15,703 bases of DNA. It comes from an uncultured Kangiella sp. (lineage in GTDB: Bacteria > Pseudomonadota > Gammaproteobacteria > Enterobacterales > DSM-103792). The position numbers and the translations under genes are program-made. The DNA lies in the NCBI GenBank assembly GCA_946480585.1, contig CAMLKQ010000015.1:1-15703 (forward strand). Direction: 5' to 3'. How positions within the stretch are numbered: position 1 is the stretch's first letter; the number at the start of each line of letters is the position of its first letter. A model generated the notes under the pieces. The model saw nothing but the letters and a program-made list of their open reading frames with translations. It ran no database searches and was not told where the DNA came from. Positions 838 through 9,909 of the stretch are shown piece by piece.

Positions 838-2271
838 ATGGCGCGCCTGTCGCTGACAATGCGTTTTTTTCTGGCGCTGGCCGCGCTGACCTTGGCATTG
901 ATCATCTTGCCGGCGCTTGCTGTTCGCTGGAGCGTACGTCACGACATCGTCGATTATTTTCAGCGGCGCGAATTTGCCCGCCTGCAACCGTTGCAGGAAT
1001 TGCTCATCGAGCAATGGGCGGTCGAGCAGAGCTGGCAATTTCTGCAGGCTGATTCAGGTCGGCTGCCGCAGTTGATTCAGCAGAGCGGCATCAACGAACG
1101 GCGTTTGCTGCGCTGGCCACGGCCGACCGAACGCCAGATGCCAGCTCCGCCCGGTGAAAGTGAACCGCCGCCGCTGCACCACCGTCTGCAGATTGTCGAT
1201 GTCGAGGGCCGGCTGGTGGTGGGGCATGCGCCGCCGCCGGGCGTTACACTCGCTCGGCAACCGCTGGAATGGCAGGGCCGCCCGATCGGCGAGCTGCGCT
1301 TGTTCATTCCGCCGTTTGTCCGTGACGGGCTCGAGCAGCGTTTTCTCAGCGGCCAGCTGAATACCTTGCTGGTGATTTCCGGGGTTGCGATGTTGCTCGC
1401 GCTGGCGGTCGCCTGGTGGCTCGGCCGGGGTCTGGCTCGTCCAATTCTGTCGGTGGCCGGCACCGTGCGCGAACTTGCGCAAGGCAAGCTGGAGGCGCGC
1501 ACGGCGGTACGCAGTCAGGACGAGATCGGCGCGCTGGCGCGCGATGTTGATCGTTTGGCGGAAACGCTGACTGCCAACGAAAAACTGCGCCGCGAATCAA
1601 TGGCCGATATCTCGCACGAATTCCGCACGCCGCTGGCGCTGATGCAGGGCAAGATTGAAGCGATGCAGGACGGCGTGTTGCCGTCCGATGCCGCCGCCTT
1701 GCACAGTCTGCACGATGCCACCTTGCGGCTCAGTCGCATGGTCGACGATCTCTATCACGTTGCCTTGGCCGATACCGGCGCGCTGCGTCTGGAATGGCAA
1801 ACGGTTGACCTGCACGCGCTGCTGGCGCAGGCGCTGCAGGACAATGCCGCGCAAATTGCGGCGGCGGGTTTGCAGGTGCAGTTGGTAGGCGAAGAGACGC
1901 TGTCGCTGCGTGCTGATCGTCAACGCTTGCGGCAAGTCATCGACAATTTGTTGCACAACAGCTGCCGCTACACCAACGCTGGCGGCCAGATCCGGGTGAC
2001 GCTGCAGCGGCAGGGTGATCAGCTGGTGCTGGTCGTGGAAGATTCCGCGCCCGGGGTGCCAGCGGCGGCGTTGCCGCACTTGTTCGAACGGTTTTTCCGC
2101 GTTGAAGGCTCGCGCAGCCGCGATGCCGGTGGTAGCGGGCTTGGGCTCAGCGTCGTCAAGGCGATCATCCAGGCGCACGGCGGCCAGATCAGCGCGGCGC
2201 CGTCGGCACTTGGCGGCCTCGCGATCCGCATTGAACTGCCCTTGAATACCGAGACGGAGCCGACCGCATGA
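838..2271 (+). CDS. baeS: BaeS-like envelope-stress sensor histidine kinase
   Basis: A 477-residue inner-membrane sensor kinase. Transmembrane segment 1 is at about residues 9-30 and segment 2 at about 174-196. The periplasmic loop between them is about 140 residues and has a Pro-rich stretch near 95-120. A HAMP linker follows, then the dimerisation helix with the phosphoacceptor H260 in DISHEFRTPLAL. The ATPase domain has N374 in NLLHNSCRYT, a G1 box DSAPGVP (402-408), an LFERFFR F-box, and GGSGLGL (431-437). BaeS-like details are the I/KIEAMQDGV after the H-box, the DSAPGV form of G1, and the RVEGSRSR run before G2. I start it at the ATG at 838, with GGGAG 8 nt upstream and the hydrophobic segment right after; an in-frame start 37 codons earlier lacks both. 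The last codons overlap the regulator gene by ATGA. It would autophosphorylate on envelope damage and pass the phosphate to the adjacent regulator. Confidence 0.93.
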   Translation: MARLSLTMRFFLALAALTLALIILPALAVRWSVRHDIVDYFQRREFARLQPLQELLIEQWAVEQSWQFLQADSGRLPQLIQQSGINERRLLRWPRPTERQMPAPPGESEPPPLHHRLQIVDVEGRLVVGHAPPPGVTLARQPLEWQGRPIGELRLFIPPFVRDGLEQRFLSGQLNTLLVISGVAMLLALAVAWWLGRGLARPILSVAGTVRELAQGKLEARTAVRSQDEIGALARDVDRLAETLTANEKLRRESMADISHEFRTPLALMQGKIEAMQDGVLPSDAAALHSLHDATLRLSRMVDDLYHVALADTGALRLEWQTVDLHALLAQALQDNAAQIAAAGLQVQLVGEETLSLRADRQRLRQVIDNLLHNSCRYTNAGGQIRVTLQRQGDQLVLVVEDSAPGVPAAALPHLFERFFRVEGSRSRDAGGSGLGLSVVKAIIQAHGGQISAAPSALGGLAIRIELPLNTETEPTA

Positions 2272-2969
2272 GCAGCGATGTCCGGGTCTGGATTGTGGAA
2301 GACGAAGTCGAGTTGGCCGAGTTGCTGGCGGGCTATCTGCGCCGCGAAGGTTATCAGGTCGAGCTCATGCACCGCGGCGATGGCGTGCTCAGTCGCTTGC
2401 GCCAGCAGCCGCCGTCCATTCTGCTACTTGATGTGATGTTGCCCGGTCAGGACGGATTGAGCATTTGCCGTGAATTGCGCCAGTTTTCCCAGCTGCCGGT
2501 GTTGATGCTGACGGCTCGCGTTGAAGAAATCGATCGCCTGCTTGGTCTCGAACTCGGCGCCGACGATTACCTGTGCAAACCCTACAGCCCGCGCGAAGTC
2601 GTCGCCCGGGTGAAGGCGCTGCTGCGCCGGGTACAACCGACGTTTGGTCAGGGCATGCTGCCGTCGTCACGCCTGCAGTTCGACGACGCCGCGCTGGCGG
2701 CTCGGTTCGATGGTGCGCTGCTCGATTTGACCGTGGTCGAGTACCGCTTGCTGCGCCAATTGGCAAGCCATCCGGGCCGCATTTATTCCCGCCAGCAACT
2801 GCTGGATGCGGCCCACGATGAGCACCGGGTGGTGACCGAACGCACCGTCGATTCCCATATCAAGAACCTGCGCCGGAAGCTGCGCGACGCGCAAGCCAGT
2901 GAAGATGAGTTGATTCATTCGGTATATGGCGTGGGCTACAAGTTTGACGAAACCCTGGCGGCGCGCTGA
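2268..2969 (+). CDS. baeR: BaeR-like OmpR-family response regulator
   Basis: A 233-residue two-domain DNA-binding regulator. The receiver domain (about 1-120) has the acidic pair E11/D12, phosphoacceptor D55 in LLLDVMLPG, T82 in LMLTARVEE and K104 in CKPYSP. The stretch EEIDRLLGLELGADDYLCKP followed by YSPREVVARVK is almost identical to E. coli BaeR, which makes the assignment specific rather than generic OmpR. The C-terminal winged helix (about 130-230) carries LDLT-x2-E-x-RLL and the recognition region RTVDSHIKNLRRKL, then SVYGVGYKF. Its ATG overlaps the baeS stop, so the pair is translationally coupled. In E. coli BaeR activates spy, mdtABC and acrD. Here the genes directly downstream are an ABC-type exporter and its adaptor, which are the obvious candidate targets (inference). 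Confidence 0.95.
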   Translation: MSSDVRVWIVEDEVELAELLAGYLRREGYQVELMHRGDGVLSRLRQQPPSILLLDVMLPGQDGLSICRELRQFSQLPVLMLTARVEEIDRLLGLELGADDYLCKPYSPREVVARVKALLRRVQPTFGQGMLPSSRLQFDDAALAARFDGALLDLTVVEYRLLRQLASHPGRIYSRQQLLDAAHDEHRVVTERTVDSHIKNLRRKLRDAQASEDELIHSVYGVGYKFDETLAAR

Positions 2970-2992: not shown

Positions 2993-4501
2993 ATGTCGGA
3001 AGTGTTGTCAGGTTCTCCGGTCGCTGACGCAGCGCTGGGTGCGCTGCCGTCGCGGCGCTCGCGTTCGCTGTTTCGTTGGTGGTTGCTCGCATTGCTGCTG
3101 ATGGCGGCGCTGCTGAGCTGGTGGTTCTGGCCAGCCGGCGAGGCCGCGCCGGCATACAAAACCGCGACGGTCGACCGGGGGCCGGTGATTCGGCAAGTGT
3201 CGGTGGTCGGCACGCTCAATCCGGTCGCCACCGTTGAAGTCGGTGCGCAAGTGTCGGGGCAAATTATCGAGTTGCTCGCCGACTTCAATTCGGTAGTCAA
3301 GAAAGGCCAGATCCTCGCCAAGCTCAATCCGAAACAAATCAACGCCAAGATCCAGCAGGCCGAAGCCGATCTGGCGATTGCCCGCGCCAACCTCAGCTCA
3401 GCGAAAGCGGCGCTGCTGGAAGCGCAAGTGAGCCAGAAAGATGCTGAGCGGCAGTTGCAGCGGGCGCGTGATCTCTATGGCCGCAAACTGCTGGCGGAAA
3501 CCGATGTCGAAGCCGCGGCGTTGAAAGCGGAACAAGCGGTCGCGCAGCTCGCCAGTCGCAGCGCCAGCGTCGAAGTGGCGCAGGCAAGCATCCGTCAGCG
3601 CGAAGCGGCGCTGACCGATGCCCAGACCAATCTGGAATACACCATCATCCGGGCGCCGGTGGCGGGCATGGTCATTCAGCGCAAGGTCAATGTCGGCCAG
3701 ACACTGGTTTCGAACATGCAGACGCCGGTGCTGTTCGTGATTGCCGAAGCGCTCGAACAAATGCAGCTCGAAGCGAGTGTCGATGAAGCCGATATTGGTG
3801 TCGTCGAAGTCGGCCAGCCGGTCAGCTTTACCGTCGATGCCTTTGGCGAGCAGAAATTTGCCGGTGAAGTCGCGTCGGTGCGGATGGTGCCCACCTCGGT
3901 GCAAAACGTCGTGACCTACACCGTGATCATCCGGGTCAGCAATGCCAACCAGCGCCTGCTGCCCGGCATGACGGCGAATGCCAACATCGAAATCGCTCGG
4001 CTCGACGATACGCTACGGGTGCCGAACGCCGCGCTGCGTTTTCAGCCGGAGGCGACCGAAACCGCTGGCGGCAATGCTGCCCGTAACGGTGGCGGCATGA
4101 TCGAACGCTTTGCCAGCCAACTCGAACTGGATGCGGCCCAGAAAGCGAGCCTGCAGAAGCGCTTGCAGGCGGTGATGAGTCAGCAGAACAGCATGCCGCC
4201 GCCACCGGGTGCCAGCGGTGGTAGTGCCAGTGCCAGCGGCGGCGGTCGCGGTGCGTTTCGTGAAGTGTTGAAAGCGTTCCGCACTGAACTGCGGCCGGAT
4301 CAGCAGGGCAAACTCGATGCGCTGCTGGCGGAGTGGGGCGGTGGCAATCGCAAGCGGATTTGGCTGCTTGATGCCGAGGACCGCTTGCAACCGGTACCGG
4401 TTCGGCTCGGCGCCAGCGATGACAGCTACACCGCCATCACCGGTGGCGATCTCACCGAAGGTGCGCGAGTGGTGATCGGGCGCGAGCGGCCGGCATCATG
4501 A
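2993..4501 (+). CDS. MacA-like periplasmic adaptor of an ABC exporter, with an inserted Spy/CpxP-like LTxxQ segment
   Basis: A 502-residue membrane-fusion protein. A single N-terminal membrane anchor (about 27-47) is followed by a lipoyl/barrel-sandwich half-motif (GAQVSGQIIEL), a long Ala/Gln/Glu-rich coiled-coil hairpin (about 120-210), the second lipoyl half (IRAPVAGMVIQRKVNVGQTL) and a beta-barrel domain ending near RLLPGMTANANIEI. The ATG at 2993 is preferred because GGAG lies 6 nt upstream; a TTG in frame at 2981 would place that site inside the gene. Between the beta-barrel and the last strands, residues 369-448 form an extra helical segment not expected in a standard MacA. It has L379-D-A-A-Q383 and L433-R-P-D-Q437, both fitting the LTxxQ pattern, joined by a Pro/Gly/Ser linker (402-420). 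Canonical E. coli MacA is about 370 residues, so this protein is about 130 longer. The stop overlaps the ATPase start by ATGA. Confidence 0.9.
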   Translation: MSEVLSGSPVADAALGALPSRRSRSLFRWWLLALLLMAALLSWWFWPAGEAAPAYKTATVDRGPVIRQVSVVGTLNPVATVEVGAQVSGQIIELLADFNSVVKKGQILAKLNPKQINAKIQQAEADLAIARANLSSAKAALLEAQVSQKDAERQLQRARDLYGRKLLAETDVEAAALKAEQAVAQLASRSASVEVAQASIRQREAALTDAQTNLEYTIIRAPVAGMVIQRKVNVGQTLVSNMQTPVLFVIAEALEQMQLEASVDEADIGVVEVGQPVSFTVDAFGEQKFAGEVASVRMVPTSVQNVVTYTVIIRVSNANQRLLPGMTANANIEIARLDDTLRVPNAALRFQPEATETAGGNAARNGGGMIERFASQLELDAAQKASLQKRLQAVMSQQNSMPPPPGASGGSASASGGGRGAFREVLKAFRTELRPDQQGKLDALLAEWGGGNRKRIWLLDAEDRLQPVPVRLGASDDSYTAITGGDLTEGARVVIGRERPAS

Positions 4502-5244
4502 CTGGCATCCGTACCGGCCACAGTACCGGGTTCAGTGCTGGGACAGCGACACCCTTGATTCGGGTGCAGGATCTGCGCAAGGTGTATCGCAACGGTGAGC
4601 AGGAAACTGTTGCGCTGGCCGGCGTCAGCACCACGATTGAAGCCGGTGAATATGTCGCGATTGTCGGCGCCTCCGGCTCCGGCAAATCGACTTTCATGAC
4701 GCTGATTGGTTTGCTCGATCAGGCTACGTCAGGCCGTTACTGGCTGGACGGTCAGGACGTCACCGGATTGGATGTCAACACGCTGGCGGCGCTGCGTAAC
4801 CGTAGCTTCGGTTTTGTTTTCCAATCGTTTCATCTGTTGCCGCGTTTGAATGCGCTGGACAATGTGATCGTGCCGCTGCTTTATGCCGGCGTATCGCGCG
4901 ACGAGCGGCGAGAGCGTGCGTATGCCGCGTTGCAGGCAGTGGGCCTTGCCGATCGCTGGCAGCATTTGCCGAGTCAGTTGTCCGGCGGTCAGAACCAGCG
5001 CGTGGCCATTGCCCGCGCCATGGTCAATTCACCGCGCATCCTGCTCGCCGACGAGCCGACTGGCGCGCTCGATTCTCGCACCGGTCGCGATATTCTGGCG
5101 CTGTTCGAGCAACTTCAAGCGCGCGGCATTACCGTGATTCTGGTGACCCATGACAAAAGCGTGGCGGAACGGGCAGCGCGGCAAATCACCTTTCTCGATG
5201 GTCAGATCATCGCCGACAGCCGGTCGGTTGCGGAGGTCGCATGA
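4498..5244 (+). CDS. MacB-like ABC transporter ATP-binding protein (separate subunit)
   Basis: A 248-residue cytoplasmic ATPase of the MacB/LolD type. Visible motifs are Walker A GASGSGKST (57-65), Q-loop Q109 in FVFQSFHLLP, signature LSGGQNQR (161-168), Walker B ILLADEP (181-187) with catalytic E186, the D-loop ALD and the switch H218 in VTHD. The signature has Asn at the position that is usually Gln (LSGGQQQR). Residues 1-19 are an unusual Gly/Thr/Ser-rich extension before the ATPase fold, so the true start could be slightly further in; the ATG at 4498 overlaps the adaptor stop and fits coupled translation. It would pair with the permease directly downstream. In E. coli MacB both halves are one polypeptide, while here they are split, as is common elsewhere. 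Confidence 0.93.
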   Translation: MTGIRTGHSTGFSAGTATPLIRVQDLRKVYRNGEQETVALAGVSTTIEAGEYVAIVGASGSGKSTFMTLIGLLDQATSGRYWLDGQDVTGLDVNTLAALRNRSFGFVFQSFHLLPRLNALDNVIVPLLYAGVSRDERRERAYAALQAVGLADRWQHLPSQLSGGQNQRVAIARAMVNSPRILLADEPTGALDSRTGRDILALFEQLQARGITVILVTHDKSVAERAARQITFLDGQIIADSRSVAEVA

Positions 5245-6470
5245 ATGCCAGCGATTACCTGACCAATGCGCTCGCGGCGCTGCGCGGCAACCCGCTGCGC
5301 AGCTTGTTGACCACGCTCGGTATTGTGTTTGGGGTGGCGTCATTGATCGCAATGATGGCGATCGGCAATGGCGCGACCGCACGCATCGACAAACTGATCC
5401 AGAGTTTTGGCAGCAACACGCTGACCATCACGCCTGGCTCGGCGCAATCGGGTGGCGCCCGTACCGGTGCCGGCAGCAAACCCAGCTTACGTGATCGCGA
5501 TGCCGCGGCGATTCTGCGCGAGGCCGACGGCGTCGTCGCGGTGTCGCCGCAGCTCAACACGGGCGGTCAGTTGATCGCTGGCAACCTGAACTGGTCCAGT
5601 CAGGTGCAGGGCGTGACGGCGGCGCATTTTGATGTCGCAAGCTGGACGCTGGCCGATGGCCGCCTGCTTGAACAGGCCGACAGTCGTAGCGCCGCCCGGG
5701 TGGCGGTGCTCGGGCAAACAGTCGCGCGCGAATTGTTTCCGGATCGCAGCCCGGTCGGTGAAAGCCTGCGCATCAATCGCAGCAATTTCACCGTGATCGG
5801 CGTGCTCGAAGCCAAGGGCCAGACCTCGTTTGGTCGCGATCAGGATGATGTGGTGTTTGTGCCGCTGGAATCGCTGCGTCGGCACCTGCTCGGCGATCCG
5901 TTGATGGCCGATGCGGTCGGCAGCTTGCTGGTCAAGGCCGCCGATGGCGTCAATCTCGATGAGCTGCAGTTGGCGCTCGGTGAAATCCTGCGCCAGAGCC
6001 ACCGGCTTAGCGCCAACGAAGAAGACGATTTTCGTATCCGCAATTTCGCCCAGACCGTAGCAGCGCGCAGCGAAACCCTGCGCATCATGACCGGCTTTCT
6101 GGCGATGGTGGCCGGCATTGCCTTGCTGGTCGGCGGCATCGGCATCATGAACATCATGCTGGTCACGGTGACCGAGCGCACCAAGGAAATTGGTCTGCGC
6201 ATGGCCGTTGGTGCGCCGCCGCGCGCGATTCTGATCCAGTTTGTCATCGAAGCGGCATTGCTGGCGTTCGCCGGCGGGCTCATTGGCGTGCTGCTTGGTG
6301 TGCTCGGTGCCTGGGGCGCTGGCAAACTGACCGGCATGGATGTGGTCCTTGATACCGGCAGCATCGCACTCGGCGCGGCGTCGTCGATCGCCACCGGCCT
6401 GTTCTTCGGCTATTACCCGGCGCTGCGGGCGTCGCGACTTAGCCCAATGGAGGCGCTGCGCACCGAATGA
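5241..6470 (+). CDS. MacB-like ABC transporter permease (FtsX fold)
   Basis: A 409-residue membrane subunit with the four-helix MacB topology. Helix 1 lies near residues 22-42 (LLTTLGIVFGVASLIAMMAI), followed by a large periplasmic domain of about 235 residues, then helices near 282-308, 330-355 and 370-395. The coupling region TVTERTKEIGLRMAVGA after helix 2 and the C-terminal YYPALRASRLSPMEALR are diagnostic of the MacB/FtsX permease family. The periplasmic part has a small Gly/Ser-rich loop (SAQSGGARTGAGS) near residues 70-83. The ATG overlaps the ATPase stop by ATGA. Together the ATPase, permease and adaptor would form an inner-membrane mechanotransmission pump that drives substrate from the periplasm through a TolC-like channel. 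The substrate cannot be read from the sequence; macrolides, peptides and lipids are all known for relatives. Confidence 0.93.
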   Translation: MNASDYLTNALAALRGNPLRSLLTTLGIVFGVASLIAMMAIGNGATARIDKLIQSFGSNTLTITPGSAQSGGARTGAGSKPSLRDRDAAAILREADGVVAVSPQLNTGGQLIAGNLNWSSQVQGVTAAHFDVASWTLADGRLLEQADSRSAARVAVLGQTVARELFPDRSPVGESLRINRSNFTVIGVLEAKGQTSFGRDQDDVVFVPLESLRRHLLGDPLMADAVGSLLVKAADGVNLDELQLALGEILRQSHRLSANEEDDFRIRNFAQTVAARSETLRIMTGFLAMVAGIALLVGGIGIMNIMLVTVTERTKEIGLRMAVGAPPRAILIQFVIEAALLAFAGGLIGVLLGVLGAWGAGKLTGMDVVLDTGSIALGAASSIATGLFFGYYPALRASRLSPMEALRTE

Positions 6471-6688: not shown

Positions 6689-7420
6689 ATGGAACAGCAC
6701 CGTACTTCGGCCCATGACTCCCATCCTGCCTCGCTGCCAGCGCGTGAAGTGGTGCGCTGTGAAGGCGTCAGCCAGCGGGTGCCGACCGCGGAAGGACCGC
6801 TCGATATCCTGACTGACATCAGCTTCGCCATTCAGTCCGGTGAGTCGGTGGCGATTGTCGGCGCCTCCGGTTCCGGCAAGTCGACACTACTCGGTTTGCT
6901 CGCCGGCCTCGATACGCCGAGCCACGGCGACATCTGGCTCGATGGCGAACCGCTGCGTGCGCTCGATGAAGACAGCCGCGCCAGTCTGCGCGCGCGCAAA
7001 GTCGGTTTTGTCTTTCAGTCGTTTCACCTGTTGCCGGCGCTGACGGCGCTGGAAAACGTCATGTTGCCGCTCGAAATTGCCGGCCACAGCGATGCCGACA
7101 AAACCGCGCGTCACTGGCTGGAGCGGGTCGGTCTTGGCAGCCGTTTGAGCCATACGCCGCGCCAGTTGTCCGGTGGCGAACAGCAACGCGTTGCCATTGC
7201 CCGGGCGTTCGCCGCGCAGCCGGCGATTCTGTTCGCCGACGAGCCGACCGGTAACCTCGATCGCGCCACCGGTTCGCGCATCATCGAGTTGTTGTTCAGC
7301 CTGAACGCCGAGCAGGGCACGACACTGGTGCTGGTCACCCACGATGACGCGCTCGCGCGCCGCTGTCAGCGTCGCCTGATGCTCGCGGCCGGACGTCTGG
7401 TGACGGAGGTAGCGGGATGA
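6689..7420 (+). CDS. ybbA: YbbA, ATP-binding subunit of the YbbAP ABC transporter
   Basis: A 243-residue cytoplasmic ATPase. Motifs are Walker A GASGSGKST (58-66), Q110 in FVFQSFHLLP, signature LSGGEQQR (160-167), Walker B ILFADEP (180-186) with E185, and H218 in VTHD. The run GNLDRATG with IIELLFSLN and GTTLVLVTHD just after it closely follows E. coli YbbA (GNLDRQTG, ADLLFSLN, GTTLIMVTHD), which separates it from LolD and from the MacB-type ATPase upstream. AGGA about 10 nt before the ATG serves as ribosome site. It overlaps ybbP by ATGA. YbbAP belongs to the MacB-like mechanotransmission group and functionally partners with TesA in E. coli. Here the tesA start lies about 6.6 kb away on the other side of the efflux block. 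Confidence 0.93.
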   Translation: MEQHRTSAHDSHPASLPAREVVRCEGVSQRVPTAEGPLDILTDISFAIQSGESVAIVGASGSGKSTLLGLLAGLDTPSHGDIWLDGEPLRALDEDSRASLRARKVGFVFQSFHLLPALTALENVMLPLEIAGHSDADKTARHWLERVGLGSRLSHTPRQLSGGEQQRVAIARAFAAQPAILFADEPTGNLDRATGSRIIELLFSLNAEQGTTLVLVTHDDALARRCQRRLMLAAGRLVTEVAG

Positions 7421-9909
7421 AACTCTGGCGTCTCGCTCTGGCGACGCTGCGGCGCGAACGGCGCAGCAGCGAAATCCGCGTACTGTTGCTGGCACTGGCC
7501 ATTGGCGTTGGCAGTGTCAGCACCACCGGTTTTCTCGGTGATCGGCTCGATCGCGCCATCACCGAACGCGGCGGCGATTTTCTCGGCGCCGATGCCCAGC
7601 TCAGCAGCCCGGTGCAACTGGAGCCAGAGCTGCTTGATACCGACCCGCTGAAAACCGGCCCGCTGCAGCAAAGCAACGGGCTGGAATTCGCCAGCATGTT
7701 GGCGAAAGGCGATGCGTTTCAGCTCGCCAGTGTGCGCGCCATCGATGGCCAGTATCCGTTGCGCGGCAAAGTCGTCATTGCGCCGGATGTGGCAGCCGCT
7801 GGCAATGTGCAAAAAGCGCAGCCGAATCCGGGGGAAATTTTTGTCGATGGCCAGCTGCTGACGCTGCTCAATGTCGCAGTTGGTGACAGCGTTGAAGTCG
7901 GTGCCGCCGCGTTTCGCATTGCCGGCATCGTGCAGGACGAACCAGGTCGTGCTGGTGCCGTGTTCGGGCTGGCGCCGCGGGTGTTCATGCGGCTCGATGA
8001 AGTCGGTAAAACCGAGGTGGTGCAGCCCGGTAGCCGGGTCACGTGGCTGTATTATTTTGCTGGCGAACCGGAGGCGATCAGCGCTTTCGTCAAGGACAGC
8101 AAACCGAAGCTGACCAGCAGCCAGCGTCTGGTCGGTGGCCGCGAAGGTTCGGAAGCGGTCAGTGGCGCGTTTGCCCGCACCAGTCAGTTCGGTTCGCTGG
8201 CGAGTCTGGTCAGTTTGCTGATGGCGACGCTGGCCGTGGCACTGGCGGCACGCCGCTACGCGCTGCGCCATTTTGATCAGGCGGCGCTGATGCGCTGCTT
8301 CGGGTTGGCGAGCGCGGATCTGCGCAGCTTTTATGCGCTGCAATTGTTGTTGCTCGGTGTCATCGGCAGCGTCATTGGTTTGCTGATTGGTTATGGCGGT
8401 CACTGGCTGCTGCTGCAATCGTTTGCGCCGGATTTGGCCGAGCGTTTGCCGCCGGTCAGCCCGATGCCGGTGATTGCCGGTTTGGGCAGCGGTTTGCTGG
8501 CGCTGTCGGGTGCGGCCTTGCCGTCCTTGCTGCGTTTGGCGCAAGTGCCGCCGCTGCGGGTGCTGCGCCGGGAAATGGTGCCGCTGACCCGTGGCGCCTG
8601 GGCGCTGGTGTTGCTCAGTCTGTCGCTGCTGGTGCTGCTCTGCTGGTGGTATGCCGGCAGCGTCAGAATGGTGGCGATTTTCATCGGCGCGCTGGCGGCG
8701 TTTGCCGTGGTGCTGTGGGGCCTGTCGCTGGTGACGTTGCAAAGCGGCCATCTGCTGCGCAAGTTGTCGCCGGGCGCGCTGCGCTTTGGCATCGCGCAGT
8801 TGCTGCGGCATCGTTACGCCGCCAGCATTCAGCTCGGTGCATTCGCCTTGGCGTTGCTGCTGATGGGCTCGGTGGCATTGGTGCGCACCGATCTGATCGA
8901 CAGCTGGCAGCAGCAATTGCCTCCGGATGCACCGAATCATTTCTTGGTGAACATCGCACCGGAACAGGATGCACAAGTGACGGCGTTTCTTGCTGAGCGC
9001 AACCTGAAAGTCTCGCGCAGTTATGCGATGGTGCGTGGCCGCCTGACTGGAAAAGCCGGGAAAGACATCAAAGAAATGGTGCCGGAATCGGCCCGCGAAG
9101 ATAATCAGTTGCGACGCGAGCTGAACCTGACCTGGAGCGAGGCGCTGCCGCCGAACAACACCATTACCGCCGGTGAGTGGCATGGCACCAGCACCACCGG
9201 CCAGATCTCGATGGAAGACAAGCTGGCGAAGCGGCTCGGCATCCAGCTTGGCGATGTGCTGACCTTCACCATTGCTGATCGCGAGATCAGCTTGCCGGTA
9301 ACCAGTTTTCGTGAAGTGAAGTGGGATTCGATGCAGCCGAACTTCTTCGTCATTTTCTCGCCCGGCACGCTCGACGGTTACCCGGCGAGTTTCATTTCGG
9401 CGATGCATGTGCCGAGCGAGGACACGAGCACGTTGCCGGCGTTCGTGCAGGCCTTCCCGACCGTCACGGTGATCGCGCTCGACCGCATCATCCGCGATGT
9501 CCAGAAGGTCATCGCTCAGGTCGTTGTCGCGGTCGAGTTGTTGCTCTCGTTCCTGTTGCTGTCCGGCGTGGCGGTGTTGATCGCAGCCTTGCTGGCCAGT
9601 CTGGATGAGCGCCGTCGTGAGGCGGTCGTACTACGTACACTCGGCGCCAGCCGCGGTTTCCTGCAGCGCAGCCTGCTCGCTGAGTTCAGTCTGCTCGGCC
9701 TGCTGGCGGGCCTGCTGGCGGCCGCCGGCACCGAAGGCGTGGCCGCCCTCATCAACGGCCAAGTCTTTGATTTGGAAGCCCGTTTTCACCCATGGCTGTG
9801 GCTGTCGGCACCACTTATCGGGGCGGTGATCGTGGCCCTGTCCGGCACGCTGGCGACCCGTCGGATCCAGCAGGTCAGCCCGGCCGTGGCGCTGCGGGAA
9901 ACGGCCTGA
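7417..9909 (+). CDS. ybbP: YbbP, permease subunit of the YbbAP ABC transporter
   Basis: An 830-residue membrane protein (E. coli YbbP is about 804). Hydrophobic segments fit the ten-helix, duplicated-FtsX plan: about 20-40, 265-285, 305-330, 350-370, 390-415, 420-445, 475-495, 705-730, 755-775 and 795-815. Two periplasmic domains lie at about 45-260 and 500-700. YbbP-specific landmarks shared with the E. coli protein are VQPGSRVTW near 205, QQQLPPDAPNHFLVNIAPEQ near 500-520, RRELNLTW near 565, SMEDKLAKRLGI near 595 and PNFFVIFSPGTLDG near 645. The gene begins inside the ybbA stop. YbbP is thought to extract hydrophobic compounds from the inner membrane and offer them to the TesA hydrolase. 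Nothing looks truncated, and no good terminator follows before the topA promoter. Confidence 0.94.
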   Translation: MKLWRLALATLRRERRSSEIRVLLLALAIGVGSVSTTGFLGDRLDRAITERGGDFLGADAQLSSPVQLEPELLDTDPLKTGPLQQSNGLEFASMLAKGDAFQLASVRAIDGQYPLRGKVVIAPDVAAAGNVQKAQPNPGEIFVDGQLLTLLNVAVGDSVEVGAAAFRIAGIVQDEPGRAGAVFGLAPRVFMRLDEVGKTEVVQPGSRVTWLYYFAGEPEAISAFVKDSKPKLTSSQRLVGGREGSEAVSGAFARTSQFGSLASLVSLLMATLAVALAARRYALRHFDQAALMRCFGLASADLRSFYALQLLLLGVIGSVIGLLIGYGGHWLLLQSFAPDLAERLPPVSPMPVIAGLGSGLLALSGAALPSLLRLAQVPPLRVLRREMVPLTRGAWALVLLSLSLLVLLCWWYAGSVRMVAIFIGALAAFAVVLWGLSLVTLQSGHLLRKLSPGALRFGIAQLLRHRYAASIQLGAFALALLLMGSVALVRTDLIDSWQQQLPPDAPNHFLVNIAPEQDAQVTAFLAERNLKVSRSYAMVRGRLTGKAGKDIKEMVPESAREDNQLRRELNLTWSEALPPNNTITAGEWHGTSTTGQISMEDKLAKRLGIQLGDVLTFTIADREISLPVTSFREVKWDSMQPNFFVIFSPGTLDGYPASFISAMHVPSEDTSTLPAFVQAFPTVTVIALDRIIRDVQKVIAQVVVAVELLLSFLLLSGVAVLIAALLASLDERRREAVVLRTLGASRGFLQRSLLAEFSLLGLLAGLLAAAGTEGVAALINGQVFDLEARFHPWLWLSAPLIGAVIVALSGTLATRRIQQVSPAVALRETA

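Follow-up and report, generated by a model that had tools for sequence, protein, structure and literature searches.

An LTxxQ-type (Spy/CpxP superfamily) module in the membrane-proximal domain of a MacA-like adaptor, and a separate LTxxQ gene beside MacAB-type exporters in Aminicenantes

The exporter operon and the insertion in its adaptor

In this work, we analyzed a 15,703-nucleotide stretch of DNA from an uncultured Kangiella sp. (contig CAMLKQ010000015.1; hereafter the window), with a focus on the periplasmic adaptor encoded there and on a helical segment inserted into it. On the plus strand, genes for a BaeS-like sensor kinase, a BaeR-like response regulator, the MacA-like adaptor, a MacB-type ATPase, and a MacB-type permease form an operon-like run with overlapping or closely spaced ends, and coordinates and sequence confirm that a gap of 23 nt separates the end of the baeR-like gene from the ATG of the adaptor, as had been stated from the DNA letters alone (the sequence-only reading). 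That reading also took the protein for a MacA-type exporter adaptor, and Pfam, NCBIfam, alignment, and gene order agree and make the exporter MacB-type: the adaptor passes the cut-off of the RND_mfp adaptor subfamily (TIGR01730; 138 bits versus 94.9), its structural model shows hairpin, lipoyl, barrel, and membrane-proximal (MP) domains, and the ATPase and permease are encoded in its operon as separate, overlapping genes (4498-6470). Because it misses the cut-off of the MacA equivalog (NF008606; 170 bits versus 342), we call it MacA-like rather than MacA itself. Three homologues named Permianibacter (P0011, P0005, and P0003) are 72, 87, and 95% identical to it, which makes that genus the probable source of the window. 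The name baeSR given to the regulatory pair holds in part, in that BaeS and BaeR are the top-scoring names, but both scores stay below the NCBI equivalog cut-offs (Table 1).

The insertion occupies residues 369 to 448, where the sequence does contain the noted LDAAQ (from residue 379), LRPDQ (from 433), and Pro/Gly/Ser linker. The structural model is helical across this segment except for the low-confidence linker, as anticipated, with the layout helix-LxxxQ-helix-linker-helix-LxxxQ-helix, and the two motifs mark the starts of the predicted helices 381-400 and 435-449. The threonine of LTxxQ is not kept, its place being taken by aspartate in the first motif and arginine in the second, so that “LTxxQ-like” is the right term for both.

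The proposed relationship to Spy was upheld by profile comparison and Pfam matches, and the predicted fold may point the same way. A family profile built from 20 diverse insertions has Spy as its top PDB match (E 9.6e-8), covering both motifs, and matches CpxP weakly (E 0.13-0.17). Pfam LTXXQ (PF07813) is matched by 17 of these 20 insertions (best relative, E 1.2e-10), and PF07813 is already assigned by the database to the homologues P0067 and P0109. In the LTxxQ profile match that had been named as a check, the window’s own segment falls just short of the cut-off (24.3 bits), at E 2.7e-4 and 22.1 bits (22.5 bits for a second cut of the segment); its match spans no more than profile positions 2-37 of 100, and the complete adaptor gives only E 0.66. 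Spy and STV are the best structural neighbors of the predicted module, and a Foldseek search with the insertion returned no significant match.

Conservation was assessed in 68 full-length adaptors (the window’s and 67 of 120 listed homologues, with insertion-less sequences and many near-duplicates excluded). The motif residues L379 (66/68), Q383 (68/68), L433 (67/68), and Q437 (65/68) are nearly invariant, whereas conservation averages 48% and 43% across the two helical parts and 36% across the linker, which argues that the motifs exceed chance; the length of the linker is highly variable, while the motif residues are fixed. Seven close relatives (72-95% overall identity) likewise keep the helix pairs at an average of 82% and 78% identity to the window, compared to 56% and 58% for the two linkers. 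Among 121 segments (the window’s and all 120 listed), 109 have at least two L-x-x-x-Q-like motifs, four have one, and eight have none. The smallest motif spacings among the 68 adaptors, three of 36 residues, probably belong to P0012-P0014 and perhaps represent a reduced module. Taken together, these data leave us in little doubt that residues 369 to 448 genuinely constitute a helical module of the LTxxQ (Spy/CpxP) superfamily within the MP domain of a MacA-type adaptor.

Table 1. Genes of the operon-like run and parts of the adaptor, in positions of the window (pLDDT, predicted local distance difference test score)
Feature	Position	Strand	Basis or remark
BaeS-like sensor kinase	838..2271	+	BaeS_SmeS top match, 374.7 bits, cut-off 500 (NCBIfam; scanned from 727)
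BaeR-like response regulator	2268..2969	+	BaeR top match, 302.7 bits, cut-off 380 (NCBIfam)
MacA-like periplasmic adaptor, 502 aa from ATG 2993	2993..4501	+	Alternative start TTG 2981
N-terminal helix, residues 25-45, probable membrane anchor	3065..3127	+	Helix in model; membrane placement inferred from hydrophobic sequence
LTxxQ (Spy/CpxP superfamily) insertion, residues 369-448	4097..4336	+	Between model strands 327-344 and 453-459, MP domain
First helix pair, residues 368-376 and 381-400	4094..4192	+	Model, mean pLDDT 87-92 over 371-400
First motif LDAAQ, residues 379-383	4127..4141	+	Sequence, alignment
Pro/Gly/Ser linker, low-confidence, residues 401-416	4193..4240	+	Model
Second helix pair, residues 417-432 and 435-449	4241..4339	+	Model, mean pLDDT 88-91 over 421-440, 75 over 441-450
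Second motif LRPDQ, residues 433-437	4289..4303	+	Sequence, alignment
MacB-type ATPase	4498..5244	+	MacB top NCBIfam match, 282.6 bits, below cut-off for fused protein
MacB-type permease, MacB_PCD and FtsX domains	5241..6470	+	Pfam and NCBIfam matches

Upstream of baeS, positions 308-724 encode a secreted-looking small protein of 138 aa with two similar C-x-G-type segments; it has no NCBIfam match, and Pfam gives nothing significant for the longer open reading frame (ORF) that starts at 158. Downstream of the MacAB genes, 6689-9909 resembles a YbbA/YbbP-like ABC transporter (293.6 and 561.6 bits, below the cut-offs), and the minus strand of 1-121 resembles, by eye, the start of tesA. The baeSR-macAB block may thus sit between genes that adjoin each other in Escherichia coli. 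The E. coli-type BaeR consensus box TCTNCANAA is absent from the window, and a promoter scan found no promoter.

Distribution of the insertion and a stand-alone LTxxQ gene in Aminicenantes

To place the insertion in a broader perspective, we scanned genome contigs with the complete adaptor, as a query with the insertion region gave only 8 close relatives, and kept the best 80 of 552 adaptor relatives. By the insertion profile (E < 1e-5), the insertion is present in 42 of these loci (one, L052, cut by a contig end) and absent in 38. In a quick, midpoint-rooted tree from which the insertion columns had been removed, the 43 carriers (the window’s adaptor among them) require 3 changes, compared to a mean of 27 in shuffles, and all fall within one group of 45 (Shimodaira-Hasegawa-like approximate likelihood ratio test support, 97) whose two other members, L057 and L065, are without the insertion. 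This pattern fits, but does not prove, one old gain, mostly in Pseudomonadota, plus two losses; L057 and L065 are natural cases for what goes along with insertion loss. At large, the insertion is a minority trait: in the class to which the L001 genome (G009) belongs, 27 of 274 genomes contain a match to the adaptor at E 1e-50, and the 29 loci fetched include 2 with the insertion, of which one is the L001 locus itself.

At least one MacB-type gene is listed for 40 of the 42 loci with the insertion and for 36 of the 38 without it. Crude ORF clustering at the 42 insertion-bearing loci yielded no other clear operon partner beyond MacB-type genes and a Lysobacterales two-component system, and no stand-alone LTxxQ ORF (E 0.01) turned up in the stretches covered around them. 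Among loci with upstream sequence of 3 kb or more, a same-strand OmpR-type regulator gene lies within 5 kb at 12 of the 37 that bear the insertion and at none of the 32 that lack it. The enrichment beside baeSR that the sequence-only reading expected does not follow from these numbers, as all 12 lie in one Lysobacterales-type clade of 17 rows, so that the association may be a single event, and the 5 of the 12 that were tested score closest to the CopR/CztR subfamily (190-201 bits) rather than BaeR (125-139 bits); the top-scoring names of the kinases paired with tested regulators vary. BaeSR beside the adaptor was seen only in this window, the 80 loci including none titled Permianibacter. On the grounds of clade and subfamily, BaeSR is not supported as a general partner.

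In five Aminicenantes-titled loci of the 80 (L025, L051, L061, L069, and L076), the adaptor has no insertion, and a separate LTxxQ gene lies directly upstream of it. The encoded protein is hydrophobic over an N-terminal stretch and carries two motifs of the LTxxQ type, and Pfam LTXXQ is matched at E 4e-4 or better in all five proteins, one of them above the cut-off. These genes were detected with the insertion profile, so that part of the similarity is by selection. A profile of the Aminicenantes proteins again has Spy as its best PDB hit (1.8e-6), in a match that stops before Spy’s second motif. Aligned by hhalign to the insertion profile, it pairs both motifs (97.8%; score 73.9), compared to scores of at most 12.5 for 20 column-shuffled controls, 12.4 for a reversed one, and 9.9 for the adaptor’s own coiled coil.

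We surveyed 100 genomes of the class to which the L076 genome belongs (match E < 1e-30) and found the LTxxQ gene in 47, two of them source loci of the profile. It lies -10 to 140 bp upstream of a same-strand adaptor in 45; of the other two, one has an adaptor cut by a contig end, which brings the genomes with a MacA-like gene right after it to 46, and in the second a TolC-like gene follows instead. Six further, weaker LTxxQ matches in these genomes have no adjoining adaptor. Seen from the adaptor side, an LTxxQ gene lies upstream of 45 of 82 matches overall and 45 of the 49 best. An extracytoplasmic function (ECF) σ factor and a putative anti-σ factor are encoded 5′ of the LTxxQ gene in all 30 loci fetched from this class (L144-L173), and the adaptor follows 3′ in 29, L146 having the TolC-like gene. 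The order is thus ECF σ factor, putative zinc-finger anti-σ factor, membrane-anchored LTxxQ protein, MacA-like adaptor, and, where the stretch reaches, a MacB-type gene; the stretch of L061 begins at the anti-σ factor. Pfam confirmed the ECF σ factor on one locus. On that locus, the putative anti-σ factor had no Pfam match; it is named by its position and by HxxxCxxC, present in 35 of 35 ORFs (two duplicates).

The pairing is limited to a sub-clade, since no LTxxQ ORF was detected upstream at L111-L114, whose adaptors are the closest to that of L061 in a phylum sample, and since the 30 loci fetched from that sample (L110-L139) have a same-strand LTxxQ ORF only at L110, the query’s own, and one on the opposite strand at L130. 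L028, the sixth locus that lacks the insertion but has a stand-alone LTxxQ ORF, is not counted as adjacent because a 599-codon open frame intervenes between ORF and adaptor. Of six stand-alone proteins compared with Pfam, all match LTXXQ. As background, the 60 best LTXXQ loci from two other samples (L204-L263; 1.5-kb flanks) have no same-strand MacA-like neighbor and an opposite-strand one in two (L236 and, weakly, L232), and 27 have an OmpR-type regulator gene within 1.5 kb; cpxP likewise has a regulator gene nearby. At L087, L130, and L236, an opposite-strand LTxxQ ORF stands just before a MacA-like adaptor, a possible divergent arrangement. The open frames seen at L240 (534 codons) and L246 (530 codons) carry an LTxxQ segment toward the C terminus and do not match the window’s adaptor.

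The LTxxQ module is tied to a MacA-like adaptor in two lineages, by fusion in one and by gene order in the other, and the Aminicenantes operon independently supports a coupling between LTxxQ proteins and MacAB-type exporters. We found no description of the insertion or the operon in titles and abstract openings of the open-access literature, a scope that leaves subscription journals and preprints mostly outside; the architecture is visible in databases yet undescribed as far as that literature could show.

Possible roles of the module

According to the title of one study, the MP domain of MacA reportedly acts as a switch for the MacB ATPase. According to PMC5985334, this domain packs against MacB in MacAB-TolC, and MacAB substrates are periplasmic and include a small peptide; according to PMC8144458, Spy, which is under the control of BaeSR and CpxAR, binds unfolded clients in its cradle. 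Because the MP domain contacts MacB, the substrates are periplasmic, and Spy binds unfolded clients, we favor client capture: the putative client-binding module on the MacB-contacting domain would feed or gate the export of unfolded or amphipathic periplasmic substrates, a proposal to which we give even chances. Our own evidence for it is the sequence relationship, predicted fold, conservation, and gene order; MacA-MacB contact, MacAB substrates, and Spy binding come from the literature. In mechanistic terms, the adaptor serves the MacB-type ATPase and permease whose genes directly follow its own; in a presumed hexamer, its modules would ring the periplasmic mouth of MacB, where they could bind amphipathic peptides or unfolded proteins and either hand these clients to the exporter or, on binding, switch MacB ATPase activity, and the adjacent two-component system might raise pump levels under envelope stress. 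These considerations suggest that chaperone-like binding and export are coupled.

The chief rival, because the Aminicenantes gene order resembles CnrYXH, is that the module gauges substrate or unfolded load and signals to an envelope-stress regulator (BaeS, another kinase in Lysobacterales, or the anti-σ factor in Aminicenantes) instead of feeding the pump. CnrYXH works in that way, as CnrX senses metal and frees the σ factor (PMC7689651), and the invariable pair of ECF σ and putative anti-σ factors in the 30 fetched loci, the regulators near 12 of 37 insertion-bearing loci, and those near 27 of 60 LTXXQ loci elsewhere point the same way. Yet at 25 of those 37 loci, no OmpR-type regulator (the only type sought) lies on the same strand within 5 kb, BaeSR was seen beside the adaptor in this window only, and signaling needs no fusion to every adaptor subunit, so that we consider sensing as the sole role rather unlikely; capture and sensing are nevertheless compatible and not mutually exclusive. 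Unlikely, too, is a purely structural role, in which the LTxxQ-derived hairpin only braces neighboring adaptors or the periplasmic domain of MacB and binds no client. The insertion site in the domain that packs against MacB and the variable linker between fixed motif residues would suit such a brace, but insertion-less relatives also manage with MacB-type partners, and some of them are accompanied by a separate LTxxQ protein. That a charged helical segment mimics LTxxQ by chance is very improbable: the subthreshold Pfam score of the window’s segment, the Ala/Gly/Arg-rich composition, and the Foldseek result would agree with it, but the family profile matches Spy over both motifs, the shuffled, reversed, and coiled-coil controls fail, and the motif residues are nearly invariant. 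A metal-sensing or -binding module of the ZraP/CnrX type is hardly credible on Cys/His composition, in that Cys occurs in 0 and His in 9 of 121 insertion segments (neither in the window’s; only these two residues were counted) and no His or Cys is invariant among the five aligned Aminicenantes proteins, despite matches to Pfam Metal_resist (PF13801) by 3 of 20 insertions (best, 0.0011), 2 of the 5 Aminicenantes proteins, and 3 of the 6 stand-alone proteins and despite the CopR/CztR-like regulators of Lysobacterales.

Extending client capture to both lineages, we tentatively speculate that LTxxQ modules and MacAB-type exporters form one system of chaperone-coupled periplasmic export in two assemblies, one fused to the MacB-contacting domain of the adaptor (mostly Pseudomonadota), the other a membrane-anchored partner encoded in the ECF σ/anti-σ/LTxxQ/MacA/MacB operon (Aminicenantes). 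In either, the putative module might recognize clients that are unfolded or amphipathic, act as a gate for the ATPase, and signal the load to whichever envelope-stress regulator is encoded locally; peptides that are misfolded or toxic would then be exported instead of being refolded or degraded. How MacAB-type pumps recognize periplasmic substrates, and by what means their adaptors sense these, is only partly known, and a fold of the client-binding type in the adaptor domain presumed to touch MacB offers a concrete, testable recognition element. If true, this would join two outputs of envelope stress, chaperone and efflux, in one protein, with the Aminicenantes operon as a second, separable form of the LTxxQ-MacAB pairing.

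Comparison with known systems

Of the known systems, Spy is closest to the module itself: it is matched by profile over both motifs, is the best structural neighbor alongside STV, and also has four helices. Its middle helices are longer than those of the window module. Spy is a free dimer under BaeR control, whereas the window module is embedded in an adaptor, beside BaeSR-like genes, with a low-confidence linker at its middle. CpxP, an LTxxQ protein linked to an envelope-stress kinase, is likewise a separate protein outside any exporter, whereas the module lies inside the adaptor. MacA of MacAB-TolC shares the hairpin, lipoyl, barrel, and MP domains and the downstream MacB-type partner with the window adaptor, but the alignment shows no more than a short loop at the module site in E. 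coli MacA.

The regulatory setting has its own parallels. MdtABC is a resistance-nodulation-division (RND) pump. E. coli mdtABCD-baeSR, like the window, places BaeSR beside an exporter, and BaeR, which binds upstream of spy and mdtA (PMC7657598), also controls spy there; the difference is that Spy is encoded by a separate gene. The Aminicenantes gene order resembles that of CnrYXH from Cupriavidus, where a membrane-anchored periplasmic helical protein, CnrX, also goes with an anti-σ factor, an ECF σ factor, and an efflux pump; CnrX, however, binds Co/Ni and serves an RND pump, whereas the Aminicenantes proteins accompany a MacB-type exporter and lack invariant His or Cys.
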